Positions 1,697 to 23,640 of a stretch of 29,890 nucleotides of DNA are shown here, piece after piece. The stretch comes from Chrysophaeum taylorii (lineage: Eukaryota; Sar; Pelagophyceae; Pelagomonadales; Pelagomonadaceae), in NCBI GenBank assembly GCA_029834535.1, contig JAQMWT010000411.1:1-29890 (forward strand), given 5' to 3'. Under the pieces are notes generated by a model. It was not told the origin of the DNA. It did not search any database and was given only the letters and a program-made list of their open reading frames with translations. How positions within the stretch are numbered: the stretch's first letter is position 1; every line of letters begins with the position of its first letter. The position numbers and the translations under genes are program-made.

Positions 1697-2028
1697 TGTG
1701 GCAGTAACGCCCATTTCCCCACTTGCCTGCCTGCCACCTGACTTACCCTGATTGTTGCCCTGGTATTGACCTTGCATTTATTGGGGGGGGGTGTCATCTC
1801 GACACCTTCACCTGCGCTTCCACTGGACCCAATGTACCGGGCATTTGTATTGCTTTCTTGCTGTCTTCTTGATATTACCCTCATTTGATTGTCCGATTTC
1901 GTGATGGCGTGAGGTATTACGCTGAGATCGGGCGTGTGGTGGTTTCACCCGCGGTTCGGGTTGGGAGAAAGGGTTGTTGAGGCCCCTGGTCCGGCCAGGA
2001 GGGGCGGGTATCTGAGAAAACCACTACA
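1697..2028 (+). repeat. 5' LTR of element 1
   Basis: 332 bp, begins TGTGGCAGTAACGCCC and ends GAAAACCACTACA, i.e. TG...CA termini. It matches 9952-10280 almost base for base, differing at about eight positions plus the length of a G run after TTGCATTT. It should contain promoter, R region and polyadenylation signals, but I cannot place them reliably. Confidence 0.95.
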
Positions 2029-2040
2029 GTGGTCTCAGAA
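2029..2040 (+). promoter_or_regulatory. Primer binding site (PBS)
   Basis: One base after the LTR comes TGGTCTCAGAA, starting with the TGG that pairs with a tRNA 3' CCA. It resembles the plant-type initiator-Met PBS TGGTATCAGAGC at 9 of 12 positions, but I cannot assign the primer tRNA. The same bases are also complementary to the LTR end just upstream (see findings). Confidence 0.7.
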
Positions 2041-2046
2041 ACGGGA

Positions 2047-2075
2047 ATCGATAGTCCAACTCCCGGACTATCGAT
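2047..2075 (+). promoter_or_regulatory. 11-bp perfect hairpin beside the PBS
   Basis: ATCGATAGTCC (2047-2057) and GGACTATCGAT (2065-2075) are exact reverse complements around a 7-nt AACTCCC loop. The place, just 3' of the PBS, is where retroelements often keep dimerisation or packaging hairpins; that role is inference. Confidence 0.6.
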
Positions 2076-2777
2076 CTCCTGTTTTTCGGCGGCGAGTCGG
2101 TTCGTAACGGTCGAGTGAGTGCGAAGCCGACGCATTTGTGGGTGAAGATCCAGAGGATCACGGGTACCGCCGCGGGGTTCATTTTACGTGATTCGGATCG
2201 AACGGGGAGCGGAGTCACTACGACTCATTTTGCATACTTTTGCATATCGCAATAAGTCCTAACCTAGCTCGCGCGAGGCAGACCACCTCCCTGACGGCGA
2301 GCGACAACACCGGGAAGTCCGTCCACGTCTGCGCAAGGTGCGACCAGCGCACCGGTACAGCGCGCAGTAGTCAGACGGCTGCCGGCAATTGTCGTCTGAC
2401 GAAAAGAATACAACAAGTGAGTTGTGAACGTCCGGAACAAACCTATTATCCGGGCAAATCGCGATCATGGCAGAGAGGCCAATGACAGAACGATCGCAGT
2501 GGTTTCGGGACGCACAGGGGCGTCTGCAACGATTCAGTGCAGGGACTCCATTTGCGTCTATTGGAAGAACACCGTTCAGTACGCCCTTTCAACGGCCGGA
2601 AGCCGAGGAAAGCGGCATCGGAAGAGAGGCAAGATCATCTGATAGCCTCGACAGCCCCCAAGCGTGGTCATCCTTCCGGATCCACGCGGCGGCGAAGGGG
2701 GAGCTACGGTTGCGCCAGACGCAACTTCAAGACAAGGTGAGCCGACGTTCCCGTACGCACGACCCTACGAACGTGCG
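2076..2777 (+). other. Long 5' leader of element 1
   Basis: About 700 bases from the PBS region to the first in-frame ATG of Gag, with no convincing gene. It holds a doubled TTTTGCATA near 2228-2246 and a hairpin at 2370-2400 whose loop recurs at 9566-9599. Short open frames here are not supported by any homology. Confidence 0.6.
2370..2400 (+). ncRNA. Conserved-loop leader hairpin, copy A
   Basis: GTCAGACG (2370-2377) pairs with CGTCTGAC (2393-2400), extended by a G-U and a C-G pair, around the loop TGCCGGCAATT. Copy B at 9566-9599 has nearly the same loop on a different but still paired stem, and both follow similar GCACCGGT...CGCGCA sequence. This suggests a selected RNA structure in the leader of this family. 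Confidence 0.5.
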
Positions 2778-5700
2778 ATGAATACTACGGAGTCATCTCG
2801 AGCGGAACCCGGACCGTTTACGGCGATGCGTGGACCAGAGGAGAGTGCACCTCCTAGGCCACCATCTGCGAATACGAGAGCGACAGATTTTCGCGTGGAT
2901 GTCGACCCCGAGGTTCTGCAGACCATCAACGAACGATTCGAGATGTACCAGTCGCAGATGGAGCAAGTCATACGTGAACTTGAGAACACCCGCCGCGACG
3001 CTCAACAACAACGCTCAGAAGTGGAGCGACAGCGGATCGACAACGATCGACTTCGGCGAATGATGGAGGAATCCATGCGGGCGCATGCTCGAGAGGCACG
3101 GCCAACCTCTCCGAATGCTACGCGTGTTACGCCCGACGACGATGATGACGCTGTATCGGCACTGACCGACGATCAGCCACCGCGAAGTCGACCGGAGCCT
3201 ACCCCGCACCATCATACTGACCCCGGTTCGGCGCGTCCTCGTGACGAAGAAGAGATACTTCGTGTCAAGAAGGGAGCTGCTGGTATGACACGTATCACAT
3301 TTTCGAATCTCACGGGGCAAATTACCAAGGACCGTGATGAGGTGGACGCGTGGTGGATGCAATTGCGGCGTATGATGGAAGGCAAGATTGATAAACCCTC
3401 AATAGCGATGAATGTGATTGGAGGCGAGTATCAACTCGCCCCTATGGAAGCTTATCGCAAGTGGGAAGTTGAACGGCCGCAGATGTGGAAACAATACAAG
3501 GATGGGACCATCACAATGAAAGAGTTGCGCCAGCATGATGAGGACTGTCTGGATGCTATGCAAGAGGCGACGAAGCTTCCTTGTCCACCTCGGGCTACGG
3601 TTGAGGAGCTTGAACGTGAATGGTTCAATTTACGGCAAGGGAATTTGTCATTGAATAAGTATATCGCGCGATGGGTGCAGAAATTCGGCCAGTGGAGAGC
3701 AATGTCAGGTCGCGATACTGATCCGGCTGCGTTCCGTTCGCACTTCATTGCTGGTCTCAATTCTGAGCGCTTGCGGACGAGCGTCGAACTTGCTCAGGCC
3801 TCACCGCATATGAAAGCATCTACTCTCACCCTCAACGATGTCATTCAATTGACCATCCAAATTTCCAAGATTCTGGAAGCCAACCCTACTGCCAACATCG
3901 AAGATGCGATTAAGAAGGAGAAAGGAAAGGAGCACGCACCACGGATGAGGAGAGAGCAGCAGCAGCAGAGGCAGCAGTTGCAGCCAGTCCAACGGGTTGG
4001 TTATGTTACTGACTCGGGAGTTGGAACCTGGCTACCACAGGGGATAGATAACCATACGCGTCAAGCAATTACGACGTGCCTCAGTTGCGGCCGGCATGGT
4101 AGTTTTCACCACGACAACGGTGTGTGTCCTGTGCCGGACAATCCCTCGAGGAAGAGGCGTGCTGCTCAGACGTTGACGGCTGCGGGTTTTCCAGCAACGC
4201 CAGAGGGACAGGAGCAATACCGACGGACGCTTTTAGCTGCAGCAGGACAGGCTTCAGTGACTCAGCTGGCGCCGCGCGTTGTGCAACAGCCGCAGGTGGT
4301 CTACACAGCAGCACAGGTGCCAGGTGCAGGTCAACAGCAGCTGGTTGCAGGCACTCAGCAGCGTTTGGTTGCAGGCTCTCAACAACAGGTGGTCCGAAGG
4401 CAGCCCGCAGTGCAGCGGACCGCTCAGACCTCGGTGCGCCTGGAGGATCTGACTACGGCTCTCAACACGATGAACTTGATTCGTCAGGCACAGCAGACGG
4501 CTCCGCCGGGTAGAGGGCGACAGTCTCAGAGAGCGAACCCTAGCCAGCACAATGATGGTGTCGCCGCTCAGTGGCTTGAAGTGCTTGGCGAAGATCAGGA
4601 TGACACTAAGCGAGCGGACTACTGCACTGTGCAGTATTCTGAGCTCATGGAGGGCAACGTGTATGACGATGACGAGGTTGGGGGCGATGATGATAGCTTC
4701 TCTGCAGAAGGCTATTCCCCTGGTGACCCCATGGAACCTCCTTCCTTTTTGGTCATCACTGAAGATGCATGGGTGGAGGAGCAGGAGCAAAGTACCGAAG
4801 TGACTGGAGTTGCATCTAGAGTTCTCTCGGAAGACGAAGATAATCGTGACGAATTGGGGTATACGATTGTTCGTGTGGGACAAGATACCTTGGTTGCCAT
4901 GGATATAGTGCCACCGAGGGACGACTGTGCCGAGCGTTATGTTGCTCACCCTTCCATCTCTTCGGATTTCGAGAATTTCTGCCCTCAGACTGCGTTGAAT
5001 ATCACTCAGGATCCCGACCATCGTGAAAATAAAGCCGTAAGGTACGATGGCACGAGATCCGCCTCTTTGACGTATGTGCCTGTGGCTATCTCTTCGCAAG
5101 ATGGTTCGAAATATTCCATCATCGCTGCCGGTTTGGATGGCATGGCTGATTTCCCCTACATCGATCACCGCTTGTATCGCAAACTTGATCGTGACGGCAA
5201 AATCATCTATCGTCAGCCACTCCCTACGATTCGTACTCTAAATGGGTCAGGAGGTTCGGGAGCTGCTATTCGAGAATGGGTCATCCTCCGGATCTCCTTG
5301 GTGCCGACGACATCCATGCTGCTCATGTTCTTCGTTGGTCAAACGAATGGGCAGTTACTATTAGGAGCACGAGAATTACGACTCTTGGGTACGATTTTGG
5401 ATTATGCGACAGAGAGAGCTATTTTTCGGCGTTCTGAAGTGACCATTGGAGTTCTCAAGAATCGGACTTCCGCCTCGCCACAAGACCAGCATGGAATTGT
5501 CCTTTACAATGATGCATTCGATGCGACTCCGCAGGTAGTGCAGATGTTCCCGACAGCTAAGCTTGCTGTGCAATACGGAAATATCCAAACTTGGACGCCA
5601 GTTGGTAAACCGTGGAGTTATGACAGTCTATTGCGTTCTATTCGTATCAGAGCGAATCACCATCACATTCCTCCCGGTGATCAGACTGCTGGAAAAGCTG

Positions 5701-6605
5701 AAGACCAACTTGAATGCCCTGCAGACGAGGAAGATATCATCCCTCATTTCGCGTACGTGACGAGTACTCGATTTCTTCTTCCAAGCCAACCGTACTTCTT
5801 GGAGATGGAGTGCGATGTGCCGCTGGAAAAGAGTCACGTATTCCGACCTTATCGGTCACTCCTCAAAGATCTCCGCCTTGTACCTGGTTCCTATTCATCG
5901 TATTGTGCCGATGAGCCCAACGAAGTTCATGTGGCTGTGGAGCACATTGGTGACGAACCCATTGGTATCGACCCCGAAGTCCCGGTGGCCGAAGGCGAGA
6001 TCATACCGCATGAAGGATGTGTCAACATGCAGCTAGAAGCCACTGATGACGTGTGTCATGCCACTCTTACGGCTGCTGTTGACGACGATGAAGTCGAGGA
6101 GGATGTCTTGAGTGACAGACCTCCTCCTCAGCCACCTCCAGATGAAGAAGTGAAAAAACACCAGAAATGGAGATGGAGGCGACTGTTAAGGAGCTGCTAT
6201 CTAAGCACGCCTCCTTGGTTTGGATACCCATCACCTACACCTTTGTCGTCGTCTATTTTGCTGGCGCTGGAGGATCAACGTTGGGTATCCGGCGATGCAA
6301 TGAGCTATATGGCAGTTCATTTCGCATTGTCCTGGCTTTGGATGCTTGTCCTCAAGCCCGAGCCACCTTTGAACTCAATTTTCCGAAGATTCCCTATGTT
6401 TTGCATGAGTTGGGGAAATCTCATCGTCGTACATACGACTTGGTGTTGTCGTATTTACACTCAGATTTTTGGAAGCACTCTTATTTTCACGCCAGTCCGC
6501 CGTGTATCTATGGATCGACTGCCAATTTGCACTACAGGGACGCACGCAAGGGCGCTACTATTACTTCTTGGGTCCTGCGTCATTTCCGCAACGCACCTTA
6601 TGTGA
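2778..6605 (+). CDS. gag-pro: Gag-Pro polyprotein of element 1
   Basis: First in-frame ATG is 2778; the open frame reaches back to 2664 but only through a GTG. Residues about 45-105 form a charged coiled coil. About 190-350 is a Ty3/gypsy-type Gag capsid region (W-x-x-L-R-R-M-M onward, with YIARWVQKFGQW). A Gln-rich stretch follows near 390, then a zinc-knuckle variant C-x2-C-x7-H-x4-C from residue 434, and a second Gln/Ala-rich linker. Acidic sequence leads to a retropepsin-like domain around 780-880 with a flap-like NGSGGSG and LLLGARELRLLG. The expected D-S/T-G active site reads D-G-M (D787, bases 5136-5138), so protease activity is doubtful. Reading past A6 at 6153-6158 (about residue 1125) looks non-coding in this frame; sense continues in the -1 frame as the methyltransferase. 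The last 150 residues of this ORF are therefore probably not real protein. Confidence 0.85.
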   Translation: MNTTESSRAEPGPFTAMRGPEESAPPRPPSANTRATDFRVDVDPEVLQTINERFEMYQSQMEQVIRELENTRRDAQQQRSEVERQRIDNDRLRRMMEESMRAHAREARPTSPNATRVTPDDDDDAVSALTDDQPPRSRPEPTPHHHTDPGSARPRDEEEILRVKKGAAGMTRITFSNLTGQITKDRDEVDAWWMQLRRMMEGKIDKPSIAMNVIGGEYQLAPMEAYRKWEVERPQMWKQYKDGTITMKELRQHDEDCLDAMQEATKLPCPPRATVEELEREWFNLRQGNLSLNKYIARWVQKFGQWRAMSGRDTDPAAFRSHFIAGLNSERLRTSVELAQASPHMKASTLTLNDVIQLTIQISKILEANPTANIEDAIKKEKGKEHAPRMRREQQQQRQQLQPVQRVGYVTDSGVGTWLPQGIDNHTRQAITTCLSCGRHGSFHHDNGVCPVPDNPSRKRRAAQTLTAAGFPATPEGQEQYRRTLLAAAGQASVTQLAPRVVQQPQVVYTAAQVPGAGQQQLVAGTQQRLVAGSQQQVVRRQPAVQRTAQTSVRLEDLTTALNTMNLIRQAQQTAPPGRGRQSQRANPSQHNDGVAAQWLEVLGEDQDDTKRADYCTVQYSELMEGNVYDDDEVGGDDDSFSAEGYSPGDPMEPPSFLVITEDAWVEEQEQSTEVTGVASRVLSEDEDNRDELGYTIVRVGQDTLVAMDIVPPRDDCAERYVAHPSISSDFENFCPQTALNITQDPDHRENKAVRYDGTRSASLTYVPVAISSQDGSKYSIIAAGLDGMADFPYIDHRLYRKLDRDGKIIYRQPLPTIRTLNGSGGSGAAIREWVILRISLVPTTSMLLMFFVGQTNGQLLLGARELRLLGTILDYATERAIFRRSEVTIGVLKNRTSASPQDQHGIVLYNDAFDATPQVVQMFPTAKLAVQYGNIQTWTPVGKPWSYDSLLRSIRIRANHHHIPPGDQTAGKAEDQLECPADEEDIIPHFAYVTSTRFLLPSQPYFLEMECDVPLEKSHVFRPYRSLLKDLRLVPGSYSSYCADEPNEVHVAVEHIGDEPIGIDPEVPVAEGEIIPHEGCVNMQLEATDDVCHATLTAAVDDDEVEEDVLSDRPPPQPPPDEEVKKHQKWRWRRLLRSCYLSTPPWFGYPSPTPLSSSILLALEDQRWVSGDAMSYMAVHFALSWLWMLVLKPEPPLNSIFRRFPMFCMSWGNLIVVHTTWCCRIYTQIFGSTLIFTPVRRVSMDRLPICTTGTHARALLLLLGSCVISATHLM

Positions 6606-7519
6606 TTGGACGATGGACGCTCGAGCAGGAACCATCAGTGATCCCTTTTGTGCATCACCAATTTTATGTGCCGCGTATTGTTGATTTCTATAGTATCACG
6701 CCAGAGCTGCTGTGCTCGCGCACGCGCCTACTTGCTTGCAATGTTCGCTTGGAACTGCCGTTATTATCGCGTGTACCACCGAATTTACGGGACCGTTTTG
6801 GCCCAGCGTTGGGATTTACAGGTGGTCACCCGCTCATTATAGTGAACAGTTTCTCATCTACGCGCCCGGCTATCGGCCCTGCCTTCACGGTGACGCGCAA
6901 TAAGCTCCGCTTAGGACCTCATTTCTCGAACACCCGTCCACTCACGTTGCAGATGCACCAGGAAATTATGACCGTTCCTGCTACGTGGCAATGGGGTGCG
7001 ACAGTTTCCGAGACAGTAGCTATGAAGATGCTTGGCAGTATGGTGCCACCCGCGACTATGACGCGGATTGCGCTAGCAGTGCACAATTCGTTTGAACCTT
7101 CACTTCGAAATTTGGGTAAGTTGCGGAATATTGCGACGACTACGCTAGCCCAACCTGATCACCATATTCTACGGTTTTCACCTTTTGCTGTAGAGTCGCG
7201 CATTCCAACGCTCGACCCTGCCACTCGAAGTGTATCATGGATTGCGCCCGATGAACTCTATTCTCCTGCGAGTCCTGCACCATCAGCTGCTGCCACCACC
7301 ACCCCGCCACCACCTTCAGTTACATCGCCTGGGACGGCTTCATCTTTTGCAGGGGCACCGTCGCCACTGCTGTTATGCAGAGCAACCAAGTTGATAACCA
7401 GCCCTCCGCAACTGCTGAAGAAGAAGGCACCGCGAAAGAGCGACCAGCGTATTTCAATACGTACGACGTTCCGTGGGCGGACGCGCCTCACGACGAACAT
7501 GGTCAACCTTCACCGGTGA
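6146..7519 (+). CDS. C5-cytosine DNA methyltransferase embedded in the retrotransposon
   Basis: The product transfers methyl from SAM to C5 of cytosine in DNA. Counting from the ATG at 6167 (450 aa): motif I FAGAGGSTLG at 31-40; motif II-like LALDACPQA at 56-64; motif IV SPPCIYGSTAN at 110-120 with catalytic Cys113 in the PPC loop; motif VI region WTLEQEP, where ENV would be, at 150-156; motif VIII SRTR at 184-187; motif IX RPLTLQMHQEI from 257; motif X MLGSMVPP at 288-295. Only about 70 residues separate VIII and IX, so the target recognition domain is very small, and there are no extra regulatory domains, as in compact phage or bacterial enzymes. Deviations: ENV reads EQE, the Q of QxRxR is Cys, GN in motif X is GS. 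After about residue 365 the chain is Pro/Ser/Thr-rich and overlaps the RT frame. It can be made as a -1 extension of Gag-Pro or from ATG 6167. Family assignment is firm; activity is inference. Confidence 0.85.
   Translation, partial: RSEKTPEMEMEATVKELLSKHASLVWIPITYTFVVVYFAGAGGSTLGIRRCNELYGSSFRIVLALDACPQARATFELNFPKIPYVLHELGKSHRRTYDLVLSYLHSDFWKHSYFHASPPCIYGSTANLHYRDARKGATITSWVLRHFRNAPYVIGRWTLEQEPSVIPFVHHQFYVPRIVDFYSITPELLCSRTRLLACNVRLELPLLSRVPPNLRDRFGPALGFTGGHPLIIVNSFSSTRPAIGPAFTVTRNKLRLGPHFSNTRPLTLQMHQEIMTVPATWQWGATVSETVAMKMLGSMVPPATMTRIALAVHNSFEPSLRNLGKLRNIATTTLAQPDHHILRFSPFAVESRIPTLDPATRSVSWIAPDELYSPASPAPSAAATTTPPPPSVTSPGTASSFAGAPSPLLLCRATKLITSPPQLLKKKAPRKSDQRISIRTTFRGRTRLTTNMVNLHR
6153..6158 (+). 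promoter_or_regulatory. Candidate -1 frameshift or slippage site (A6)
   Basis: A run of six A read as AAA AAA in the Gag-Pro frame. The methyltransferase frame opens only after its stop at 6143-6145, so the shift must occur between 6146 and about 6170, and this is the only slippery tract there. The phase is not the canonical X-XXY-YYZ; a tandem-Lys slip or transcriptional slippage would fit. A 7-bp stem GGAGGCG (6175-6181) with CGCCTCC (6208-6214) lies downstream. Confidence 0.45.
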
Positions 7520-9390
7520 TGCCTCCTCATTTAGCGGATCAGGAGAGCATGCAGGTCATCCCTCCGACCGTCGCGCAGGTCGAAGAGGTGATGACTGAAT
7601 TGGGTATTACAGAGCATCCTGCTTTAGATGATGACGAGAAGCTGATGATGAAGCATTTAATCTCGTATTCGTGGGCATTTTTCGATGATGTGATGAGACC
7701 TGTTGATTCACCTGAAGTGACGCTCCGGTTCAAAGAAGAGAACCCGACTCCCGTCAAACTCTCGCCATATCGGTTGTCGAAAGAAAAGATTGAATGTTTG
7801 CGGATGCAGATTGAAGCATGGACCCGAGACGGAGTTATTCGTCCCGCGAATTCTCCATGGGGTTTCCCTATTTTGATGTTGCCTAAGAAAGGTGCTGAGC
7901 CTGGCACTTCCAATGCTTACAGAGCAGCTGTCGACCTACGGCGCCTCAATGCATTGCTCAAGGATGATAGCTGGCCGAGTGTGAGCATGGCTGACGCGTT
8001 GATGTTTCTCATTGACAAGTTTTGTCGTTCCAGTTTGGATATTCGTTGGGGCTATCACAATTTACGATTGTCGCTGGATGCACAAGATGTGGTCACCTTC
8101 ACTAGTCCTCTGGGAGCGTACAGCTACATGCGTCTACCTTTGGGAGTCAAACCAGCCGGAAGTTTGTTTTGCAAGCAGTTGAACACTGACTTGTCGCAAT
8201 GGCTATATCGTGATCTCGTGGCATATATCGACGATATTCTCGCCGGTCACGCAGATACAAAGAATCACTTGCAGTGCCTTGTGCAAGTTATTCCCCATCT
8301 CGCCTTGAAGGGGTACAGCGCCAAGATCAAGAAGATTCATTTTATGCAAGAAGTCATTGAGTTTTTGGGTCATTTATCTACCCCGAACGGACTTCTTCCA
8401 TCACCAAGATCTTTAGAAGCCATCAGACACATGCCAATTCCTGGCACTTTGTCGGATGCTGACCCTAAGAAGCAAGTGCGATCTTTCCTTGGAATGGGGA
8501 GCTTTTGCCGGCGTTATGTAAGGAATTTTGCGAAAGTTGCAGAGCCATTAAGACAACTGACGTTGCCGGACGTGAAATTCAAGTGGACGAAAGAGTGTCA
8601 GGAAGCTTGGGATGCCATCATCGAGGCTATTGTCACGTCGAAGGGCGTCTACCATCCTGATTACTCGTTGCCTTTTTACATTCGAACTGATGCTTCCGCG
8701 CATGGGTTGGGTGCTTACCTATTTCAAAAAGTACCAGTCGTTGACGACGATGGAAGAGAAAGAATCGAAGAGAGAGTTATCGAGTACTGGAGTCGAACCG
8801 TGCCTAAGTCGATGAGGAAGTATGATCCTCGGCGCTTGGAACTCCTCGCAGTACTCTCTGCTCTCGAAAATTTCCGATTTTATATCGAAGGTCATCAGAC
8901 GAAGTTAGAGACGGATCATCGTAATTTAACGTTTCTGCGGGATTCGAATCATACGTCTGGACAGTTAGCACGATGGGCTATGCGGCTTGCTGCGTTCGAC
9001 CGGGAGCTCGGATACAAACCTGGAAGCTCCCCTGGCATGCGTATTCCGGATTGTCTGTCGCGCAACCCTATCGACAAATTGATCGAGAAAGATGAAGACG
9101 GGGAACCGATCAATGAAGCTTTTTGTATTTTCCAAGAAATCCCCACCGATGTCCCTGGCACCGCTTGCTTCACCTTCTCTTCGGTGACGATGCCTATGCT
9201 GACGGACAGCGGACCCACCGCAGCTATGGTAGCAGTTAGTACGCGACAGAACGTACAACCGCCTCAATTCTCGTACGAATCTGAGCCAGTTGACTCCGTC
9301 GAACGTCTCCCTTTTGCGGATCAAGCGGAGGATGAGATCACTCTCGATGAGATAGCGAAAGAACAAGCTGACGGACTACTCGGACGTTGA
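7375..9390 (+). CDS. pol: Reverse transcriptase-RNase H of element 1 (integrase missing)
   Basis: 671 aa from ATG 7375; the frame is open from 7255 and lies -1 to the methyltransferase frame. A linker of about 100 residues precedes the Ty3/gypsy RT: NSPWGFPILMLPKKG, first catalytic Asp222 in SLDIRWGYHNLRL, and YIDD at 284-287. The connection and RNase H follow with Asp439 (RTDASAHG), the LELLAV helix near 485-495 and Asp514 (ETDHRNLTFL). The ORF stops after KEQADGLLGR, which corresponds to about residue 580 of the element 2 pol, just before the integrase zinc finger. RT and RNase H residues are intact, so the enzyme may work; integration would need a relative. I see no canonical heptamer for a second frameshift in the overlap 7255-7519; ATG 7375 or splicing are alternatives. 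Confidence 0.92.
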   Translation: MQSNQVDNQPSATAEEEGTAKERPAYFNTYDVPWADAPHDEHGQPSPVMPPHLADQESMQVIPPTVAQVEEVMTELGITEHPALDDDEKLMMKHLISYSWAFFDDVMRPVDSPEVTLRFKEENPTPVKLSPYRLSKEKIECLRMQIEAWTRDGVIRPANSPWGFPILMLPKKGAEPGTSNAYRAAVDLRRLNALLKDDSWPSVSMADALMFLIDKFCRSSLDIRWGYHNLRLSLDAQDVVTFTSPLGAYSYMRLPLGVKPAGSLFCKQLNTDLSQWLYRDLVAYIDDILAGHADTKNHLQCLVQVIPHLALKGYSAKIKKIHFMQEVIEFLGHLSTPNGLLPSPRSLEAIRHMPIPGTLSDADPKKQVRSFLGMGSFCRRYVRNFAKVAEPLRQLTLPDVKFKWTKECQEAWDAIIEAIVTSKGVYHPDYSLPFYIRTDASAHGLGAYLFQKVPVVDDDGRERIEERVIEYWSRTVPKSMRKYDPRRLELLAVLSALENFRFYIEGHQTKLETDHRNLTFLRDSNHTSGQLARWAMRLAAFDRELGYKPGSSPGMRIPDCLSRNPIDKLIEKDEDGEPINEAFCIFQEIPTDVPGTACFTFSSVTMPMLTDSGPTAAMVAVSTRQNVQPPQFSYESEPVDSVERLPFADQAEDEITLDEIAKEQADGLLGR

Positions 9391-9428
9391 GCGGATTTTT
9401 GTGCGTCTCAAGACAAAAAGCGAGCCCA

Positions 9429-9510
9429 GGAGACCACCCACAGTCTCCGAAAAGAGGCAGAAAGAAGGCCGGAGAGACCAACCATAGTCTCTGAGACCAA
9501 CCATAGTCTC
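9429..9510 (+). repeat. Three consecutive hairpins with GAGACCA
   Basis: Units are GGAGAC-CACCCACA-GTCTCC (9429-9448), GAGAC-CAACCATA-GTCTC within 9473-9492, and an exact repeat at 9493-9510. TCTGAGACCA at 9490-9499 is the perfect reverse complement of the PBS bases TGGTCTCAGA at 2030-2039. Confidence 0.7.
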
Positions 9511-9565
9511 TGGCGAGGCAAAAGGCTTGTGCCGTGTAAGTCCGTCGCACCGGTCAACCGCGCAA

Positions 9566-9599
9566 GTCGAACAGTAGCCGGCAAATTTTGCTGCTCGAC
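9566..9599 (+). ncRNA. Conserved-loop leader hairpin, copy B
   Basis: GTCGA-A-CAG (9566-9574) pairs with CTG-C-TCGAC (9591-9599) with one A/C mismatch, around a loop containing GCCGGCAAATTT. Loop and flanks match the leader hairpin at 2370-2400, while the stem bases differ and still pair. Confidence 0.5.
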
Positions 9600-9712
9600 G
9601 AGAAGTTTTGGTGTTCGAGATAGCCGTTGATATCCGAGAGAAACCGCACCATGGAAACTAGAGGAGACTGACGTTTGTTCTGCGACCGCTTCTGCTTAAG
9701 AACGACGCTTAA

Positions 9713-9951
9713 GACCAGAAGACAAAGATCCTGACGGAGGTAGCTTCAAACGCCTACGACCAAACATGGAGGGCTGTGAACCTTGTGCCTGGCTTTCGCC
9801 TGAATGAAATTGATGTCCTCGTCAGTAACTTCGGCCTCCACAGCAACAAAGTTCCTGCTGATGTAGCTCACCGAGCTTATCGTACCATTCGTGAGCGTGA
9901 CCTTCGTCACCCTTTGAAGTCGAGGACGACTTCATCTCAAGTAGGGGCTTA
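9713..9951 (+). pseudogene. Integrase C-terminal remnant of element 1
   Basis: After a stop at 9710-9712 the frame is open and reads through to the LTR. Residues NEIDVLVSNFGLHSNKVP followed by a YRTIRERDLR segment align with the last 50 residues of the element 2 integrase (HEIDVLVPKFILRSGRVP, YQKIRSRDAR). The zinc finger, DDE core and barrel domains are absent. The frame runs on into the 3' LTR to 10024 with no stop. It shows that the ancestor of element 1 had a full integrase. Confidence 0.75.
9939..9951 (+). promoter_or_regulatory. Candidate polypurine tract
   Basis: AAGTAGGGG ending four bases before the 3' LTR is the only purine-rich run there. It is short and interrupted, so the call is tentative. 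Confidence 0.35.
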
Positions 9952-10280
9952 TGTGGCAGTAACGCCCATTCCCCCACTTGCCTGCCTGCCACCTGACTTA
10001 CCCTGGTTGTTGCCCTGGTATTGACCTTGCATTTTTGGGGGGGTGTCATCTCGACACCTTCACCTGCGCTTCCACTGGACCCAATGTACCGGGCATTTGT
10101 ATTGCTTTCTTGCTGTCTTCTTGATATTACCCTCTTTTGATTGTCCGATTTCGTGATGGCGTGAGGTATTACGCTGAGATCGGGCGTGTGGTGGTTTCAC
10201 CCGCGGTTCGGGTAGGGAGAAACGGTTGTTGAGGCCCCCGGTGCGACCAGGAGGGGCGGGTATCTGAGAAAACCACTACA
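9952..10280 (+). repeat. 3' LTR of element 1
   Basis: 329 bp, same TG...CA ends as 1697-2028 and about 97% identical. The G run after TTGCATTT is shorter, and a cluster of differences lies near the 3' end (CCCCCGGTGCGACC here, CCCCTGGTCCGGCC in the 5' copy). Confidence 0.95.
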
Positions 10281-10770: not shown

Positions 10771-11087
10771 AGCACCCACATCCTTCATGCCCCCCCCCCA
10801 CACACCCCCCTCTTAGCAGTCGACATTTAAAGAAAAAATAGAGATAGAAAACTCCATTTAGGGTTAGGGACTCCCCTACTGTCCCCCTTAACAACTAACT
10901 AACTTCAGACCTCTCCTGAGCATGGGAGCCAGGCCGGACCGGCAGGAGCCGGTACGGAATCACAAAGAAAAATCACGCAGTTGGGGCAGAGGCGAGGGAC
11001 GAGGACGGACTTGTTGATGGTGGACCGCCACTGCGCGCGATCTTGTGCGAGGTCGTGCAAAAGCGTCGCAGGCCGCGGACGTGTTGG
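10771..11087. other. Intergenic with poly-C and one GGGTTAGGG
   Basis: Holds CACCCACATCCTTCATG (about 10774-10790), also found inverted just outside the right inverted repeat (about 19420-19436), then C-rich runs and a single GGGTTAGGG at 10860. No gene seen. Confidence 0.45.
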
Positions 11088-11250
11088 TCCACGAACAATC
11101 GACCTGTCCGTCGCGTTCTGCCCAACCGAGCGAACTCCATCCCAGCGCGGACTTTCCGGGTGCTAACCGGCCAGCCCGGGAGGCGAGCAGGCACCGTCTC
11201 ACTCCGGGACGGCCGGGGCCGCCGCAGGGAGCAAGCGTGTTAGGCGTCGT
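11088..11250 (+). repeat. Left long inverted repeat (repeat A, copy 1)
   Basis: GACGTGTTGGTCCACGAACA through GGAGCAAGCGT-TAGGCG is the reverse complement of 19226-19399 with a small number of substitutions and indels. It forms one border of the 8.3-kb unit. A diverged third copy is at 28415-28545. Confidence 0.85.
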
Positions 11251-11645
11251 CCTCCATCGCAACCAACGGTTAGCGATCGCAGGGTTAACATCACACTTAC
11301 AACCACTAAATCGCTGTGTCGCACACCGTGCTGCTCTTTGTGTCGTTAGCGGACAGGACGAAAGGCAGCACTACCACTGCCACGATTCTCTACCATAGGC
11401 ACAGTGATTTTTTTCTGTTCTCTAGGTTTGGACCCAGTCCGGTACTGGTAGAGAAACGTCCTCCGAAAGACATCGATCTCGATCGACGTCTCGGACAAAG
11501 GCTCAGGATTTCCAGGCAAGAGCAATCTCCTGAAGTTCCTGAAAGTTTTAAGACCGTAGTCAAGTTTCATCGCTTGCTACTGGTGAAAAAGTGTGAAAAA
11601 GTGTGAAAGGCAACCAACAACGCGCAAAACGCAACCCCGAAAACG
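11251..11645 (+). other. 5' region of the long P/S/T-rich ORF
   Basis: No gene seen. Three tandem 10-bp units of GTGAAAAAGT occur at 11583-11608 immediately before the start codon at 11646. Confidence 0.45.
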
Positions 11646-12350
11646 ATGGCGACTCACGACCAACAAGTTCCGAGTCTGGAATCAGCGACGCCATTCGCTA
11701 CACCACAAGTCCCACATGCTTTCTGGCAACCGCTCAAACAGCTCCTAGATGATATCTTAGGTCAACACGCCGCTGATAATGCTGCCCTGCAAGCCAAAAT
11801 CGCTGCTGGTTACGCTGATCTCAGAGCCAAACTCACTGCCGCAAATGATCAAGACGAGCAAATCGATCAAGAAGTGCAACTCGATCAAGACGAGCAACTT
11901 GAACAAGCTCCCCAACCAGCTGTTCATACGGCAACTCCCCTCAAGCACAAGCAAACTTCTCACGAAGTCGCGACCCATGACCCGATCATCTCGATGGTCA
12001 CCCCCCCTCATGCCGACAACCCCACTGGATGTCAAACACCCCACGGCAAAGTCTCAGACCTAACTGCCTTCCCTCCGGACCCAGGCATAGCCAAGGTTAC
12101 TCCACAACCTGGCACACCCCACATTCACGAGGACACTCCAACTTGTTCAAATATCGCACCAGCAATGTTGAACACACCACCACCAATGAACATTACTCCC
12201 TTCACTCCACACCCACCGGAGCCTCCACCTCCTTCACTGGAGCCTAACTCCCCACTATCGGCAACTCCCGCTACACCACATATACAAGTTCCCCAACATC
12301 CTCGTCAACCCTCTCGCCGCACCACTCATCTTCTTGATGATCATGCCATA

Positions 12351-12660
12351 TACGGCCATGACGGCCCCGGCACCTTCATCCCCGAGCCCCCACCGCGGCT
12401 CAAGCTCATGCCGCCCCACTGTCGGATTCCCTTGTCCGATATCCATCATCTTCCGCAAGTCACTCTCCTCAGGACTTTCCTCTCCATCCACAAGACCATG
12501 CCACCTACGGCCACGACGGCCCCGGCACTTCCATTTCTACCACAGCTCCTTCCGCGGCTCAAGTTCCTGCCGCCCAACCATCGCACCCTCATGACAGACC
12601 TTCATCACCTTTCGAAAGTCGCTGTTCCCCCGATTTGCACCTCCACCCGCGTGACTATGC
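12351..12660 (+). repeat. Imperfect 155-bp tandem duplication
   Basis: TACGGCCATGACGGCCCCGG at 12351 recurs as TACGGCCACGACGGCCCCGG at 12506, followed by parallel CCGCGGCTCAAG and CATCATCTT/CATCACCTT sequence. The period is not a multiple of three, and a frame change lies inside the first copy. Confidence 0.6.
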
Positions 12661-15600
12661 ATTCTACGACTACGACCATTCCTCCGTCCCCACTCGAGTC
12701 CCCACTCAAGCAACACTCCACCTCCTTTCTCCAAGTTCCAATGCACCTCCGTCTGCGCTCCAACGCGAGTTGGCCGCCACTACGGCTGCATTCCGCTCCC
12801 AAACCGCTGAATTGGCCGCAACCAAGGCCATGCTCATTCGCAAGGATGACGCTTTGTCCTCCACAGCCAACAAACTCACCACCACCGACGCCGCCCTGGC
12901 TTTCGCCACTGCCCAGCTCGCCATCCAAGCCGACGAACTGGTCTCCACCCAAGCCGAACACCATCTCACCCACACCCAGCTCAAGGCACTCGAAACTGCC
13001 CACGCTGACATCCGCAGCTCCCACCTTGAAACCAACGCCGTCCTCCAAACCATTCTTACCTCATTGGATGCCACTCACCCCACCCAAGATGCTGCATCGC
13101 ATCTTTCACCTCCTTTCCCCATCCACAACCAACCTTCATCCCCTTCCGAACCAACCTCCAATGCCTCTCCCCCGATTCTCCCCGAGTACCTCCAAGGATG
13201 CCCCGGACCTGGTTCTCCTGGTTCACCACCCACTCCGTCTCTCTGTTCTCAACCCCCCGCCATCTCTGGCCCCTCCTCCTCTACCCACTCACTCTTCGCC
13301 TCTTTGGCACCCCCTGAACCCCTTTGCACCCGCTCGCCTTATCAGCTACCTGGTTCATTCCAACTCGACCACATCCCCGCGTCCGAGTTGCGAGGGCGTA
13401 CATTCAACACCGGCGACCGTACCCCTACCACCAGCGACGATCACCACGTGCAAAGTCCCACCAAGAATCAAGACCACCCACATCAAGAGTCGACAAGTTC
13501 CGAACTATCAAAAGACAGCTCTTTGCCAGATGGTCATGCTCACCATCATGCTGCCAAGACATACATAGGGCTTCTTCTCTCTTCGGGCACAACGGCCCAG
13601 GAAGCAATCATGTCGAAGAAACACCAAGCCATCTCGTTCCCACTTTCGACAAGTCAAAGACCAAGACACCTCGAGATGTTCCCGAGTATTATGCCTACAT
13701 CGACTATGGCAACCACACCCAAGAATCTAAGGCTCCGCCGTATTCCATGCACCGGGCGCAAGAGCCGCAGGCCACTGACAACATCCCCTCTGATTCAGTC
13801 CCCTGGTATGATGCATACAGCGAAGAAGCAAGACCCACTTCACTAGTCTCGAAGATGGTCTCCTCGACCATTCCAGATCAGCCGCCTGATCCAAGCACCA
13901 CCAATGACCCCGCAATGCCGAATCCACAAGGACAAGACACGCTGTCAACGGCCCCACGGTCAACATACTCGCAGGCACTCACCGCACCTGCAGGTATCAG
14001 CTCAGATTCACAAGGCATTCCCGCCTTATTCGATATCTCTCGATCAGCAGCTTCCGATCACTTCGAAGCTGGTTCCGCCTCGCCGCCTCCCCTCCTCGAA
14101 GACAGGCGCGCACTGCCGCTCACCGGCGCTTGCTGCTGCACCCACCATCCACCTTCTCGGTTGGATGCACTGGATGACACTGCTCAGCAGGTTGCATGGA
14201 CCCATCTGCGACCACCGTGTAACGATTTGATGGATGTCTTCGCACGAGCACCAGTCGCAACAACTGATCACCCGCTCCCCAACTCTCGGTCAGAGGACGC
14301 ACTCCTTTCGACTACCGATCCTTATGTCTCACCGCGACCAAGCCCCTGGAAACCTTTCCCCATGGCTGCAGTAACATACACAGATTTCGAGAGTTCTGAA
14401 CGGCCCGATCAGCCGCAAACTATGCACGATTCCATTGCGACCACTTCGGTCCTGTGTGTCCCCTTGCATAGCTTTCTTCTGGACGCCACACGCTTGCGCT
14501 GCCTCCGGAAATTCGACGTTGCGCTCTCAGGAAACATTATCCGCGCACTATGCACAGACTCGCTTCAACTAAACCACTTCTGTAAGCATTTTCGCATAAC
14601 TGGAATGCACGACAAACGTTCCATGCCAGCTGCCGGCTCCACCACAAACATGCACCCAAGTCACGTACGTTGCCTCCCTCAAAAGCGTCTTTTCGCTCAG
14701 CACGTCACTCCTCATTTGAGGACGCATGTCATATGCCCGCACCTTCGAATGCTCTACACGCCTAAGGGCAACCCTGGTCACTCTGGCACTCACCGCTCTG
14801 GTCCCAGCATCTCCGCTATTGAGGATGCACCCAGCAGGACTGACCCTTACATCGCCCTTGGTTCAACTGCATTCTCCTTCGGCGACCCCTCTTTCGAATT
14901 CCCGCACTGGACCCCAAGCATATCAGGCCGGATACTCTCCACCACGGGATCTCAGCTCACGCGCCCATCTGCCCTACCTTGCAGACAGGTCAGCCGCGAG
15001 CCACACTCCTTTTGGCACTGACTTCGGACCACCCGCATCACGCGCTTTCGCTCTTGGAGCATGACACGCTTTTTGATGCTCTCCGCGTCACCGCTTCTAA
15101 CACCACGACACTCGTCATTTCCACCGACACTCCGCGCCGCAACGTATCTCACGACCTTCAGATCACCAACCTAAGTCGCTCGCGCCCGCACCACGTCGCG
15201 CACGCCTTACGAGGGCGTATTTCAATTGGTGACCTCACAGGTCTTTCGATGCATTTTCCGACGTCCGACTTTGAACTTGCGAATTACTTTATGGCAATCC
15301 CCAATGCCAAGACGTTTGAAGCTGCGCAATCATGTCTCTGGAACTCCAAAGCAACAGAAACTGCCAGACAAGAGAGCACTCAGCTCTCACCAACTGCTCA
15401 ACAGCTACTTAAAGTCTCGCACATAGCAACAAGTACTATCTCGCAGTCTCTATTGGACGACAAGACGAAAGATAAGACCACAACGGCCAGCTACACCAGC
15501 CAGCTCATTGATGTAGCAGACGAGACAACGCAAACCAACTGCACAGCACGGTTCCAGACTATGCAGACGATGCTCAGGTCCAACGCTCAATTACTCGACC

Positions 15601-18308: not shown

Positions 18309-18369
18309 TACGAACCCAAACCTCCAGCAAATTTAGAGTACGAACCCAAAGCTACAGCAAATTTAGAGT
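18309..18369 (+). repeat. Short tandem duplication
   Basis: TACGAACCCAAA-(C/G)CT-(C/A)CAGCAAATTTAGAG occurs twice in a row (about 30-bp period, in frame), giving a YEPKxxANLE doublet in the encoded protein. Confidence 0.75.
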
Positions 18370-18836
18370 TTTCATATTTATGGCCACCCCCAGACAACTT
18401 TATCCCGATGTTCTCATCGCGCTACGATTATCCGCATATTATTTTAGACGCTCATGCCCTAGCTTCAGCTGTCCCACGCTACACTCAGGACGACAGCTTT
18501 GACACGTATGTGACAGGCAATTCTGGTTCTCTCATCTTCCAGAAACAGCTCCGCCCTACTCGCTATCATTACGACGATTACCTTACCATGTCGAAGCCGA
18601 TTTGGTTAAATGGTCATATCTCTTTATGGGATCACGCTGGCGCTCCGTCACATCGTCAAATCTTTACTAGCCCAACATCAGCCACAATAGAATCTCATCC
18701 CTACGGCCACTCTCATTATTCGCCTTTCGATCGACCATTGGTCTGCTGCGCAATTCCCGACTGCCTGACCCGTGATCCCTCCTGTTATTATTCGTCAGAC
18801 CCCCCGCTCTACTCAGATGCTCCCCCAGCCGCTTAG

Positions 18837-19987: not shown

Positions 19988-22900
19988 CTAGCGCGAGGAG
20001 CGCGGCGTCGCCTTACGAGCATCTCGTGAACGAATCTTCTGGTAAACGCGGGTGATGATCGGTTCAGGAACTCGACCACTGCGTAAAATAAACTTGGGGA
20101 CCAACACGTCAATCTCGTGCGGAGCGAAATCCGTGACACAAGGAGTTGTGTTGGAGGAAATTCGGGACTTGTCGGTGAAACTTCGACCTTCAACGTCCTT
20201 GAACTCGGGCTTGAGCTTGCGGTGCGAAAGGTGAGAGGTCGGCTTGAAATAAGCGACATCATCGTTCGGACCCAAATCGGAATAGAAATGTAGAGCGACA
20301 CGATCATTTTGGTAATCGTAAGGCTCGTAAACTTCGGCAACATAAATCTTCTTGCGCCAATCAGAGCGCTTCCGGTCAGGAATCCGGAAAACAACAAACT
20401 TACCGTGCTGATAATCATCACGGAAGGTTTCTTCGGGTTTGCGGATGGTTTGATCAACGATCGGAGGTACCATCACCGGCGTGATCTGACTTACATGAAC
20501 ACGTCGTTCTTCGGGCGGAGAGTCGAGAGACTCAATCCTATAGGTGACCGGGGAAAGGCGTTCCTTGATAATAAACAGGACGCGCCATTCCGGTCGAAGT
20601 TTGTTCTGGAGGAAAGGAATATAAAGCAAAACGTGCGATCCTGCCTTGTATTCAACATCAACATGATCGGCATTGTAGGCCAATCGTTGTTTCTTCAAAG
20701 CTTTATCACGAGCCTCGCGGACGATCTTCGTATAATACTTCAATCGTTCACGAGTTTCGGCGACTGCATCAGAGCGAATCTTCGGCCATAATCGCGAATC
20801 AAAGTCCATAAGTGTGTAGTCGGTCGGCAGCATCGGCTGACGGTTCAGGCGCAGCATAAAGGGAGAAATCTGCGTGCCTGGAATAAACTTGCGGTTGTAG
20901 CAAAACGCATTATAATGAGCAAAGTCAGGCCAATCCGTAATGTTCCGGCCCTGAAGGCAAGCACGGAGGAAGGCCTTGATAAATCGGTTGACACGCTCAG
21001 CCGGGTTCGACTGGGCATGATAAGGAATCGTAGTTTTGTATCGTATGTTGAAGAGATGGCAAAACTCGCGCATCAACTTGTTCACGAACTCTTTACCGTT
21101 GTCGGTACGAGTCATCTGGGGCAAGTAGCCCTTGAGGAGGGTGTTAATGACAAAAGACTCGAGGACAGACTCCGCAGTCTTATCGTTCAAAACACCCAGA
21201 ATCCAGAAATGCGAGAACGGATCAAAAAATACTAGAAGATACGTCTCTGGACCAGCGCTGGGCAAGGGTCCAAATAAATCCATGCAAAGAACAGCACCAT
21301 CACCATCGTAGACGGCCAGCTGCAAGATTCCAGCTCGTTTCGGCTCAGGCGTACGAGCTTTCTGGCAAACTAAACATTCGGAAATGAAGACTCCAACTTC
21401 GTTCGACATGTGAGGCCACCAAAATCGTTCTTGGATAGCCTGGACGGTACTGTGACGTCCCATATGACCACCGTTAACCGGAGTGTCATGGTAGAGTCGA
21501 ATAATGCACTTGCGCAACGTAGCAGGTGCAACAATCATCGGGTGCAAATCAGCCGAAATGCGGTGAAGAACGTCTTTAACGACTTCGAATCGTTCGTTCG
21601 CTCGGGAACGTCGCGGCGTCTGACCTTGGGCCATTCGGTGGCGAATATCCTCGCAAGTAGCATCAGATTCTTGCTCACGTGCGATCTCAGCGAGCGTCAT
21701 GTTATCGGGTATCTTATCGATATAATCTTTGTAAGCGGCTGCGTCCTTGAAGATCTGTGGCTCATCGCGCGCACGGTTCTTCCGACGTTGTCTCGTAGCG
21801 TGAGACGTAGCCAATTTCATCGGATCCTTTTTAGGATCTTCTTCCTCGTCTTCCATCAGTTCGGTCGTAATAAACGACATTATGAAGTGGCAGCCGGAGG
21901 CGGGAATTCCTCGGTCATCCACAGGTCGGGGAAGCTCTTCGAACACCAAATAAGCGTGGTTCAAAGGTTCTCCAAACTCGTCAGTCTCGATGACATGATC
22001 TATGGGGTTGCGGGAGAGACAGTTAGGGATACTCATTCCCGGCGACTTTCCCGGCTTGTAACCAAGTTCAGGGTCAAAATTGGCGAGGCGCATCGCCCAC
22101 CGAGCAAGCTGCCCAGACGAGTGCGTCGCCTTACGTAAAAACGTCAAATTTCGGTGATCGGTCTCCAAAACAGTACGGTGCCCTTCGATGTAGGCTCGAA
22201 AGTGCTCTAGAGAAAGTATAACTGCCAGCAGTTCTAGCCGACGGGGCTCGTAATTGCGCATCTCCTTCGGCACAGCTCGGCTCCAATATTCAATCACTCG
22301 TTCTTCTCGAGTCACTCTTCCGGCATCGTCCTTGACTTCGACAATATGGAAGAGATACGCTCCAAGTCCATCCTTGGAAGCATCGGATCGGATCTGAAAA
22401 GGCAGATCATAATCGGGGTGGTAGACTCCTCTGGAATCAACCAGAGCTTCAATAATCGTATCCCAAGCTTTCTGACACTCGGGCGTCCACTCGAACTTTA
22501 CACCTTCGAGGCATAATCGTCTCAGCGGTTCCACGATCTTCGAGTAGCCCTTCACATATCGCCGGCAGTAATTACTCATGCCGATGAAAGAGCGTATCTG
22601 GGTCTTCGGGGAAGTATTCGGTAAAGTACCTGGAATCGGCATCTTCTGCAGTGCTTCCTGCGTCTTCGGATTCGGCTTCAAGCCTTCTGGGGTAGAAATG
22701 TGTCCCAGAAATACTATATCATCCTTGAGAAGATGGAACTTCGCGGTTCGACCGCTGTACCCTCTCTGTGCCAATTGACACATCACTTCGATCAAAACTC
22801 GTAAATGTCGATGAAGATCGTCGGATCCCATCATAATATCGTCAACAAACGCAACCAAGTCTTGATACATCCATTTCGAAAGGTCGCTCGCCATTTGCTT

Positions 22901-23419
22901 GCAGAAAAGAGCTCCGGCCGTCTTCACACCTAGAGGTAATCGCAAGAAACTATGAGCGCCAAGTGGGCTAACCATCGTGACAGCGTATTGCGCTGCCGGG
23001 TCCAGACGAAGGTTGTGATATCCCCATCTAATATCAGTGCATGTCCGCCATCGTCTCATGGCGAGAAAAGCTAAAGTATCGTCTTGTCGAATGTTCGGCG
23101 AACTGTCATTGACCAATTGATCGTTGAGCTGACGTAAGTCAACTGCAGCACGGAACGCGTTTGACGTTCCAATCTCCGCTCCTTTCTTTGGAAGCATCAA
23201 CACAGGAAAGCCCCAAGGTGAGTTGGCCGGACGAATGACTCCATCTCGGCACCACTCGCTGATCTGCTTGCGGAGACAATCGAGCTTCGCAGGCGTCAAT
23301 CGGTAGGGCGTCATCTTAATCGGTCGCGGATTCGCGTCTTTGAATCGTAGAGACACCGGAGGTGAGTCCACAGGTCTCATAATCGGGTCGAAAAAGCTCC
23401 TCGACCGTCGACTCCGCAT
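19988..23419 (-). CDS. pol: Ty3/gypsy pol: RT, RNase H, integrase (element 2)
   Basis: 1,143 aa from ATG at 23417-23419; true pol probably begins further upstream in another frame. RT: catalytic Asp129 (CTDIRWGYHNLRL) and FVDD 191-194. RNase H: Asp346 (RSDASKDG), Glu396 (LELLAV), Asp421 (ETDHRN). Integrase: HHCC finger His644/His652/Cys682/Cys685; DDE core Asp714 (MDLFG), Asp773 (RTDNGKEF), Glu808 (NPAERV). Next a GPY/F-like barrel (KLRPEWRVLFIIKERLSPVTYRIE), then an extra SH3/chromo-like module near 1000-1070 with VAEVYEPYDYQ and VALHFYSDLG. All catalytic residues are present, so the enzyme may be active. RT and RNase H resemble those of element 1 closely (NSPWGF-LMLPKKGAE, LETDHRNLTFLR), marking one family. 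No LTR pair, Gag or methyltransferase is visible around it. Confidence 0.93.
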   Translation of the reverse strand: MRSRRSRSFFDPIMRPVDSPPVSLRFKDANPRPIKMTPYRLTPAKLDCLRKQISEWCRDGVIRPANSPWGFPVLMLPKKGAEIGTSNAFRAAVDLRQLNDQLVNDSSPNIRQDDTLAFLAMRRWRTCTDIRWGYHNLRLDPAAQYAVTMVSPLGAHSFLRLPLGVKTAGALFCKQMASDLSKWMYQDLVAFVDDIMMGSDDLHRHLRVLIEVMCQLAQRGYSGRTAKFHLLKDDIVFLGHISTPEGLKPNPKTQEALQKMPIPGTLPNTSPKTQIRSFIGMSNYCRRYVKGYSKIVEPLRRLCLEGVKFEWTPECQKAWDTIIEALVDSRGVYHPDYDLPFQIRSDASKDGLGAYLFHIVEVKDDAGRVTREERVIEYWSRAVPKEMRNYEPRRLELLAVILSLEHFRAYIEGHRTVLETDHRNLTFLRKATHSSGQLARWAMRLANFDPELGYKPGKSPGMSIPNCLSRNPIDHVIETDEFGEPLNHAYLVFEELPRPVDDRGIPASGCHFIMSFITTELMEDEEEDPKKDPMKLATSHATRQRRKNRARDEPQIFKDAAAYKDYIDKIPDNMTLAEIAREQESDATCEDIRHRMAQGQTPRRSRANERFEVVKDVLHRISADLHPMIVAPATLRKCIIRLYHDTPVNGGHMGRHSTVQAIQERFWWPHMSNEVGVFISECLVCQKARTPEPKRAGILQLAVYDGDGAVLCMDLFGPLPSAGPETYLLVFFDPFSHFWILGVLNDKTAESVLESFVINTLLKGYLPQMTRTDNGKEFVNKLMREFCHLFNIRYKTTIPYHAQSNPAERVNRFIKAFLRACLQGRNITDWPDFAHYNAFCYNRKFIPGTQISPFMLRLNRQPMLPTDYTLMDFDSRLWPKIRSDAVAETRERLKYYTKIVREARDKALKKQRLAYNADHVDVEYKAGSHVLLYIPFLQNKLRPEWRVLFIIKERLSPVTYRIESLDSPPEERRVHVSQITPVMVPPIVDQTIRKPEETFRDDYQHGKFVVFRIPDRKRSDWRKKIYVAEVYEPYDYQNDRVALHFYSDLGPNDDVAYFKPTSHLSHRKLKPEFKDVEGRSFTDKSRISSNTTPCVTDFAPHEIDVLVPKFILRSGRVPEPIITRVYQKIRSRDARKATPRSSR

Positions 23420-23640
23420 CGATGGGCCATCCCGAGGGCGGAGTGAGGTCGCTGTAGCAGCCCTCCCTGTCGCTCTCGACAGCGCGATCGACAGCGGTGC
23501 GCTCTTCGCTGTCGAGGTCAGCCCAGCCTCGGCGCAGCTGTTCGAGTGGATGCCCGGAGCTCGGTCTTGGAATCCGGCACACAGGGCTGAATTCCGGGCG
23601 TAGTCTCGACGGGTCGACCACCAACCGCCGACCCTTTATG
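23316..23640 (-). pseudogene. Upstream pol remnant of element 2, other frame
   Basis: In the frame of the 23316-23624 ORF, residues LRRGWADLDSEERTAVDRAVESDREG and WPIDAESTVEELFRPDY look coding and run up to the point where the RT frame (FFDPIMRPVDSP) begins. A single frame change near 23380-23400 would join them. This seems to be the linker before RT, comparable to the 100 residues before RT in element 1, but the two do not align convincingly. Low-complexity Arg/Ala-rich frames further upstream are unassigned. Confidence 0.4.

Follow-up and report, generated by a model that had tools for sequence, protein, structure and literature searches.

The window analysed here is a stretch of 29,890 nucleotides from the pelagophyte Chrysophaeum taylorii (contig JAQMWT010000411.1 of assembly GCA_029834535.1; contig C411 of the 70.8-Mb, 697-contig assembly used for the genome searches). 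It contains a Ty3/gypsy long terminal repeat (LTR) retrotransposon that carries, ahead of its reverse transcriptase (RT), a predicted domain of the C5-cytosine methyltransferases (MTases). An initial annotation made from the sequence alone had proposed such an enzyme in an LTR-framed gypsy element. The family of this copy is called gypA below, and a copy of its sister lineage, gypB, lies on the opposite strand of the same window. The features are listed in Table 1.

Table 1. Features of the gypA element and of the second gypsy element in the window.
Feature	Position	Strand	Remarks
5' LTR	1697..2028	+	332 nt; TG...CA ends; 96.4% identity with 9952-10280
Candidate primer-binding site	2030..2047	+	TGG start, 1 nt past the LTR; based on position and TGG only
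gag-pro frame	2646..6602	+	homology with other copies stops near 6167
C5-cytosine methyltransferase frame (predicted)	6146..7519	+	PF00145; domain at at least 93 distinct genome places
Methyltransferase core	6203..7195	+	331 aa; alignment A1, aligns with copies and sister lineage gypB
Motif IV PPC	6497..6505	+	catalytic Cys 6503-6505 (context SPPC); 24/24 gypA rows, 9/9 readable gypB rows
RT-RNaseH frame	7255..9390	+	RVT_1, RT_RNaseH, RT_RNaseH_2; YIDD; homology with copy L031 from 7345
Remnant of the polyprotein C-terminal tail	9700..9913	+	tblastn with the tail of L031
3' LTR	9952..10280	+	TG...CA; pairs with 1697-2028
gypB element, RT-RNaseH-integrase frame	19988..23635	-	domains in order, rve over cut-off

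The methyltransferase domain and its motifs

The MTase open reading frame (ORF) matches PF00145 in two stretches (E 5.4e-9) with 36.4 bits against a curated cut-off of 22, which bears out the domain proposed in the initial annotation. The same ORF is matched by PHROG 116 (E 1.4e-10) and by the NCBIfam model dcm (E 1.9e-4), in the latter case below the model's own cut-off.

By the usual numbering of C5-MTase motifs, motif VI commonly reads ENV and motif X GN.VPP. In the window core, six motifs occur in the correct order within a single frame: motif I as FAGAGG (6257-6274), motif IV as PPC, motif VI as EQE with the glutamate retained (6623-6631), motif VIII as SRTR with the RxR pair present and the leading glutamine absent (6716-6727), motif IX as RPLT, and motif X as GSMVPP with the usual asparagine substituted (7034-7051). 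The order and the single frame annotated for motifs I, IV, VI, VIII, IX and X therefore stand, while motifs VI and X depart from the expected form. In alignment A1, both gypsy lineages have EQE instead of ENV, and GN.VPP is replaced by GSMVPP or ASVVPP.

Twelve motif residues were checked after L009, L013 and L015 had been set aside as second copies of the same places. Ten of them are intact in all 24 gypA rows, G24 in 23 and E141 in 22, and all 12 are intact in the nine readable rows of the ten from gypB. The catalytic cysteine is thus intact in 33 of 33 readable rows, and the RxR pair in every readable row, across two lineages that are about 39% identical.

Structure of the element and decay of the window copy

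The LTRs frame the element as annotated. A target-site duplication was not found at the window copy; another copy, L029, is flanked on both sides by the 4-base sequence GGTC, as judged by eye. Within the gag-pro frame, a zinc-knuckle-like CLSC...H...C and a retropepsin-like LDGMAD...LLGAREL can be recognised by eye. Retrotrans_gag reaches only E 0.03 there (15 versus 24.1 bits), and Pfam gives no protease match in the segment upstream of the MTase. At the position where retropepsins have D[ST]G, both gypA (LDGMAD in the window) and gypB (copy L052) show DGM. Of the annotated location between protease and RT, the position ahead of RT and ribonuclease H (RNaseH) is therefore established by domain matches, while the protease is recognised by eye only.

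In the window copy, gag-pro, MTase and RT each occupy a separate frame, and the integrase is gone: the equivalent of residues 1565-2043 of L031, comprising integrase zinc and core domains, would be expected at 9372-9700. The three-frame layout, which the initial annotation had singled out for comparison with known cases, does not hold for the family. Among 12 other plus-strand gypA loci from the set L009-L028 (minus-strand loci being left out of this count), eight have the MTase core in one open frame that extends at least 300 nt to both sides; L025 and L028 are interrupted by stops, and L020 and L023 are open downstream only. Single core stops occur in six of the 20 loci L009-L028. In L029, one frame runs from gag into RT, and in L031 a single frame of 2115 aa extends from the end of gag to the integrase, most of gag lying in other frames. 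A gypB copy, L052, has a single frame of 3041 aa within the locus, or 3067 aa as counted elsewhere in the analysis, ended by the locus edge, and its first ~1000 residues are assigned to gag by position only. Both L031 and L052 have the order protease-like segment, MTase, RT, RNaseH and integrase in one frame. The Pfam domains of L031 follow each other as RVT_1, RNaseH, H2C2 and rve, the last scoring slightly under its cut-off (29.4 versus 32.6 bits). Programmed frameshifting as the family layout was rejected because other copies read through in one frame. The window element is thus a decayed copy, and its three-frame layout reflects the decay of this copy. RT-RNaseH ahead of the integrase, as predicted for Pol of L031 and of the gypB copy in the window, is the arrangement that defines Ty3/gypsy elements.

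Copy number and the sister lineage

A genome search with the window MTase gave 108 match rows at no fewer than 93 distinct gypA places (93 of 1070 candidates scored). The MTase of L052 occupies the same position in its element and is 37-39% identical to that of the window; used as query, the gypB MTase gave at least 117 rows (117 of 1063 candidates). Together, the two gypsy lineages thus account for 210 places or more with the MTase domain. Some places may be assembly duplicates, since a few rows on different contigs look base-identical, for example C10 and C297 in the gypB MTase search and C25 and C521 in the copia MTase search described below. A chance insertion, which had been named as the alternative, and a reading artefact are rejected by the number of gypA places, the 117 gypB rows and the purifying selection described below.

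The same gene order recurs in the copies, for which a count had been suggested. The gypA RT search gave 92 rows, of which 73 were retained after removal of 16 gypB-like rows (66-67% identity) and three second fragments. An MTase match on the same strand was scored upstream of at least 39 of these 73 RT places, 27 of them at a distance of 99-263 nt. The RT of the window gypB element is found at 82 or more places of the sister lineage (82 of 1435 candidates), with a scored upstream MTase match at a minimum of 47 of the 82 and a distance of 444-452 nt in at least 37 of these. The 1.5 kb upstream of the gypB copy in the window gave no MTase match, though other gypB copies have one.

Since two sublineages of gypA and the sister lineage share the MTase, the best answer to the question of a new acquisition, which had been left undecided, is an old acquisition within the gypsy clade of gypA and gypB. 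The enzyme acquired shows no detectable membership of the Dnmt3 line, to which those of KnitGypsy and SymbioDIRS are reported to belong (see below).

Selection on the methyltransferase

Ratios of nonsynonymous to synonymous substitution (dN/dS) were calculated by NG86. Between the window copy and L031, dN/dS is 0.084 for the MTase (dS 1.305), 0.042 for RT and 0.177 for the protease region; the comparison with L053 gives 0.094, 0.034 and 0.176, respectively. These ratios are rough because dS is high. In closer gypA pairs, the MTase of L029 has dN/dS values of 0.27 against L010, 0.31 against L026, 0.19 against L021 and 0.195 against L054, which contains three stops. The gypB MTase of L044 compared with seven others gives 0.18-0.24. 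The gypsy MTase is thus under strong purifying selection between sublineages, and the overall pattern fits constraint between lineages combined with decay after insertion.

A copia family with a different methyltransferase, and the host enzymes

The genome contains 57 PF00145 matches, none of which overlaps the rows of the gypA MTase search. Two of them are host genes: L037 encodes DNMT2 (PDB 1g55, E 3.9e-39), and L036 encodes DNMT5 carrying SNF2, with a match of E 2.8e-129 to PDB 7r76, listed under the name 'Rad8', which we take to be Cryptococcus DNMT5. Of the 55 remaining matches, 46 overlap rows of a search with an MTase from a Ty1/copia family and two more (L003/L033 and L005) were assigned by tblastn, this assignment leaving out seven.

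In L034 and L035, the copia MTase and the Ty1/copia RT (RVT_2) lie in one frame; the frames read in L033, L038 and L039 contain the MTase and not the RT. The copia MTase query gave 108 rows at 101 or more distinct places (101 of 678 candidates) with identities down to 59%. The MTase is located upstream of the integrase (L033-L035, L038-L041 and L003-L008, all on contigs other than that of the window). It retains PCQ and ENV, and a likely motif IX-X (NAVP) was recognised by eye about 300 aa beyond motif VIII, where Pfam gives no match. The catalytic part is likewise constrained, with dN/dS values of 0.12-0.13 at dS 0.56-1.1 for L035 against L039, L004, L007 and L003. Further comparisons give 0.131 (L039 against L034), 0.164 (L039 against L003) and, for the close pair L035 and L034, 0.28. 

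Kinship between the gypsy and copia MTases was not detectable: hhalign gave a probability of 0.1, and the profile scores fell under 0. A recent common origin was rejected on this basis; a very old common root might escape such shallow profiles. In the window, the frame 15798-18833 has a weak tblastn match in L004, in the part with the copia MTase (21% identity over 359 aa, E 1.8e-6), which is perhaps compositional.

Origin of the enzymes

The A1 profile of the gypsy MTase scores best with P0001 (36 bits) and P0002 (35 bits), two bacterial-type sequences from the protein search, followed by 3g7u (14.8 bits), 8yf3 (14.1 bits), HaeIII (5.4 bits) and host DNMT2 (4.4 bits). DNMT1 and DNMT3A score -1.4 and -2.4 bits, and host DNMT5 was not reported. 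The copia profile scores best with 8yf3 (16.8 bits), HaeIII (11.2 bits) and DNMT1 (8.1 bits). The reference set comprised few MTases, with a single Dnmt3 and without DNMT6 or CMT. Judged by these profiles, neither the gypsy nor the copia MTase lies close to DNMT1, DNMT3A, host DNMT2 or host DNMT5; both have their nearest, though weak, likeness among bacterial-type enzymes and may derive from bacteria, phages or viruses. The gypsy enzyme does not detectably belong to the Dnmt3 line: the sequences GSPC and FDGIATG of DNMT3A correspond to SPPC and FAGAGG in it. Capture of host DNMT2 or DNMT5 was rejected as a source, given the 4.4 bits for the former and the missing match for the latter. With the bacterial-type Dcm enzymes (PDB 8yf3 and 3g7u, P0001, P0002), the gypsy MTase shares motif I FxGxGG and PPC besides the top profile scores; it differs in the changed ENV and GN motifs and the fusion to Pol, and identity is 29% over about 30% of the query. 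With the host enzymes it shares the Pfam domain and the genome.

A phylogeny had also been suggested. In a maximum-likelihood tree of 15 sequences, gypA and gypB are joined with a support of 100, while the deep placement of the gypsy and copia lines is weak (supports 43 and 55), so that the tree unites the two gypsy lineages and leaves the gypsy and copia MTases without a deep position.

Among 5.8 billion protein sequences, of which each search scored the 8000 candidates with the most shared words, a single-sequence search with the MTase gave no match at E 1e-3, and an alignment-based search gave two remote matches. Scans of viral contigs with A1 and A2 gave no relative, a scan of prokaryote genomes with the gypsy RT gave no relative, and PF00145 was absent from the 120 listed of 123 public relatives of the RT. 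One protein, P0003 (793 aa), is filed under a Pseudomonadota metagenome-assembled genome on a contig of 2621 bases and shares 60% identity with the gypsy RT-RNaseH. The linker found here between MTase and RT recurs at its N-terminus, and the protein contains no MTase. It probably belongs to a related element from some other eukaryote, the contig being mis-binned. A dinoflagellate or perkinsid as the host of the window DNA was rejected, as the spliced-leader pattern had no matches at up to one mismatch.

Possible functions of the element-borne enzyme

We lean, with some reserve, towards an MTase that is encoded in Pol, packaged and directed at the element's own DNA. In this model, the enzyme would be translated as part of Gag-Pol and packaged together with RT and integrase, and would then methylate the new double-stranded cDNA or the fresh insertion. 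The methylated copy would bear a mark of host DNA, the host having DNMT5, and might thus not be treated as foreign or might start in a chosen chromatin state.

Several observations weigh against this model. The EQE in motif VI and the motif X without asparagine could alter catalysis, and the structure predicted for the MTase from three sequences has a pLDDT of 32.9 and was not used. A scored MTase match is missing at 34 of 73 gypA and 35 of 82 gypB RT places, although L047 (C24), counted among the misses, holds 253 aa of the domain. In the close pair L031 and L053, dN/dS of the MTase is 1.0 (four synonymous and 12 other changes). The nearest published case, KnitGypsy-Dnmt3, gave no activity in yeast, a result that its authors call inconclusive (de Mendoza et al. 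2018, PMC5890265). 

A footprint of CpG decay is also not clear. The ratio of observed to expected CpG is 1.33 in gypB L052, i.e. there is no depletion, and 1.04-1.08 in three gypA bodies, mildly under two host loci (1.31 and 1.43); it is 1.00 in two copia frames and lower, 0.62, in the window LTR, which has 332 nt only. CpG transitions occur at 1.06-1.21 times the frequency of other C/T and G/A changes in three regions of 20, 14 and 20 gypA copies, from which L009, L029 and L032 were dropped. Among the C contexts, CpG is unremarkable. These data would also agree with a different specificity, deamination that is rare, RNA as the target or methylation that is only transient.

The lack of a clear footprint would suit an active MTase with a target other than the cDNA. 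Such an enzyme might act on RNA, either the genomic RNA or the tRNA primer, or else on host loci, and so alter host silencing. An RNA target has also been proposed for SymbioLINE-Dnmt by its authors (PMC5890265). The gypsy MTase has little likeness to host DNMT2, and its location in Pol beside RT puts it together with the cDNA, so that we regard a target of this kind as unlikely. A domain kept for a non-catalytic role in DNA binding, flipping or particle assembly would agree with the altered motifs VI and X of both gypsy lineages and with the loss of E141 in two of 24 gypA rows. This seems improbable to us in view of the catalytic cysteine and RxR pair preserved between the diverged lineages and of the PCQ and ENV retained by the copia MTase. 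That the MTase is a passenger without element function, captured by chance or hitch-hiking from the host, or an artefact of reading, is very improbable and largely refuted: the broken window copy with its frames and lost integrase, the RT places without a scored match and the L031/L053 pair would suit it, but the enzyme has been retained since the split of gypA and gypB at all the places counted above, with the low dN/dS found at dS 1.3 between sublineages.

Other features of the window

A 142-nt inverted repeat, 96% complementary, has its arms 8 kb apart at 11077-11218 and 19258-19399. It encloses overlapping long frames rich in Pro, Ser and Thr (11607-18836), three of which were searched without a Pfam match. 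On the minus strand, two frames at 25457-27078 resemble a MULE-type transposase by eye and have no Pfam match at E 0.01, and a 32-nt tandem repeat with C runs lies at 27812-27960. A Pfam search of six other window frames gave no match at E 0.01.

Relation to known elements and implications

Retrotransposons with DNA methyltransferases (DNMTs), including one gypsy case, are already known; the present elements add a gypsy family with a different enzyme and a separate copia case. Published are KnitGypsy-Dnmt3 from the charophyte Klebsormidium nitens and SymbioDIRS-Dnmt3 and SymbioLINE-Dnmt from Symbiodinium (PMC5890265). SymbioDIRS-Dnmt3 domains, which offer a precedent for the model favoured above, performed de novo CG methylation in yeast; such activity was reported for SymbioDIRS alone, the other results being inconclusive according to the authors (PMC5890265). 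KnitGypsy-Dnmt3 resembles the gypsy elements described here in having a C5-MTase in the gypsy Pol frame, several copies and purifying selection. It differs in its MTase, which is of the Dnmt3 line whereas A1 scores -2.4 bits with DNMT3A, in its streptophyte algal instead of stramenopile host, and in its repeats, which are DIRS-like according to PMC5890265 and direct LTRs here, the comparison being one by text that does not include the domain order there. The two Symbiodinium elements are likewise retroelement-borne C5-MTases in hundreds of copies, and SymbioLINE-Dnmt also has an orphan MTase line, but they belong to DIRS (with tyrosine recombinase) and LINE elements and not to LTR gypsy or copia elements.

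Symbiodinium copia elements are without any DNMT domain (PMC5890265), while a passage in PMC12344493, citing PMC5890265, names 'LTR Copia and DIRS' as carriers of Dnmt3. Gypsy and DIRS elements encoding DAM or DCM occur in Stramenopiles among others, according to a passage in PMC6338049 that names no C5 case. The genome of Chrysophaeum taylorii is given as 71 Mbp in 702 contigs, and the string 'transpos' is absent from the main text of that paper (PMC10366177). In full-text literature on DNMT-bearing retrotransposons, coverage of which excludes most subscription papers, only PMC5890265 matched, and no pelagophyte or copia case was recognised among the literature listings, as judged by titles.

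Ever since the 2018 paper, it has been hard to explain why an element that hosts silence by cytosine methylation should itself encode a methylase. The further host line, the gypsy family with a different enzyme and the copia case suggest a repeated, convergent retention of such enzymes. As host DNMT5 is available for comparison, the methylation of copies with and without an MTase would be measurable in one compact 71-Mb genome. It appears fairly probable that gypsy and copia elements independently captured unrelated C5-MTases outside DNMT1, 2, 3 and 5 and that selection has since preserved these at some 311 places or more. Element-borne MTase genes would then far outnumber the host-borne ones, and something about this host would seem to compel LTR elements to methylate nucleic acid of their own.

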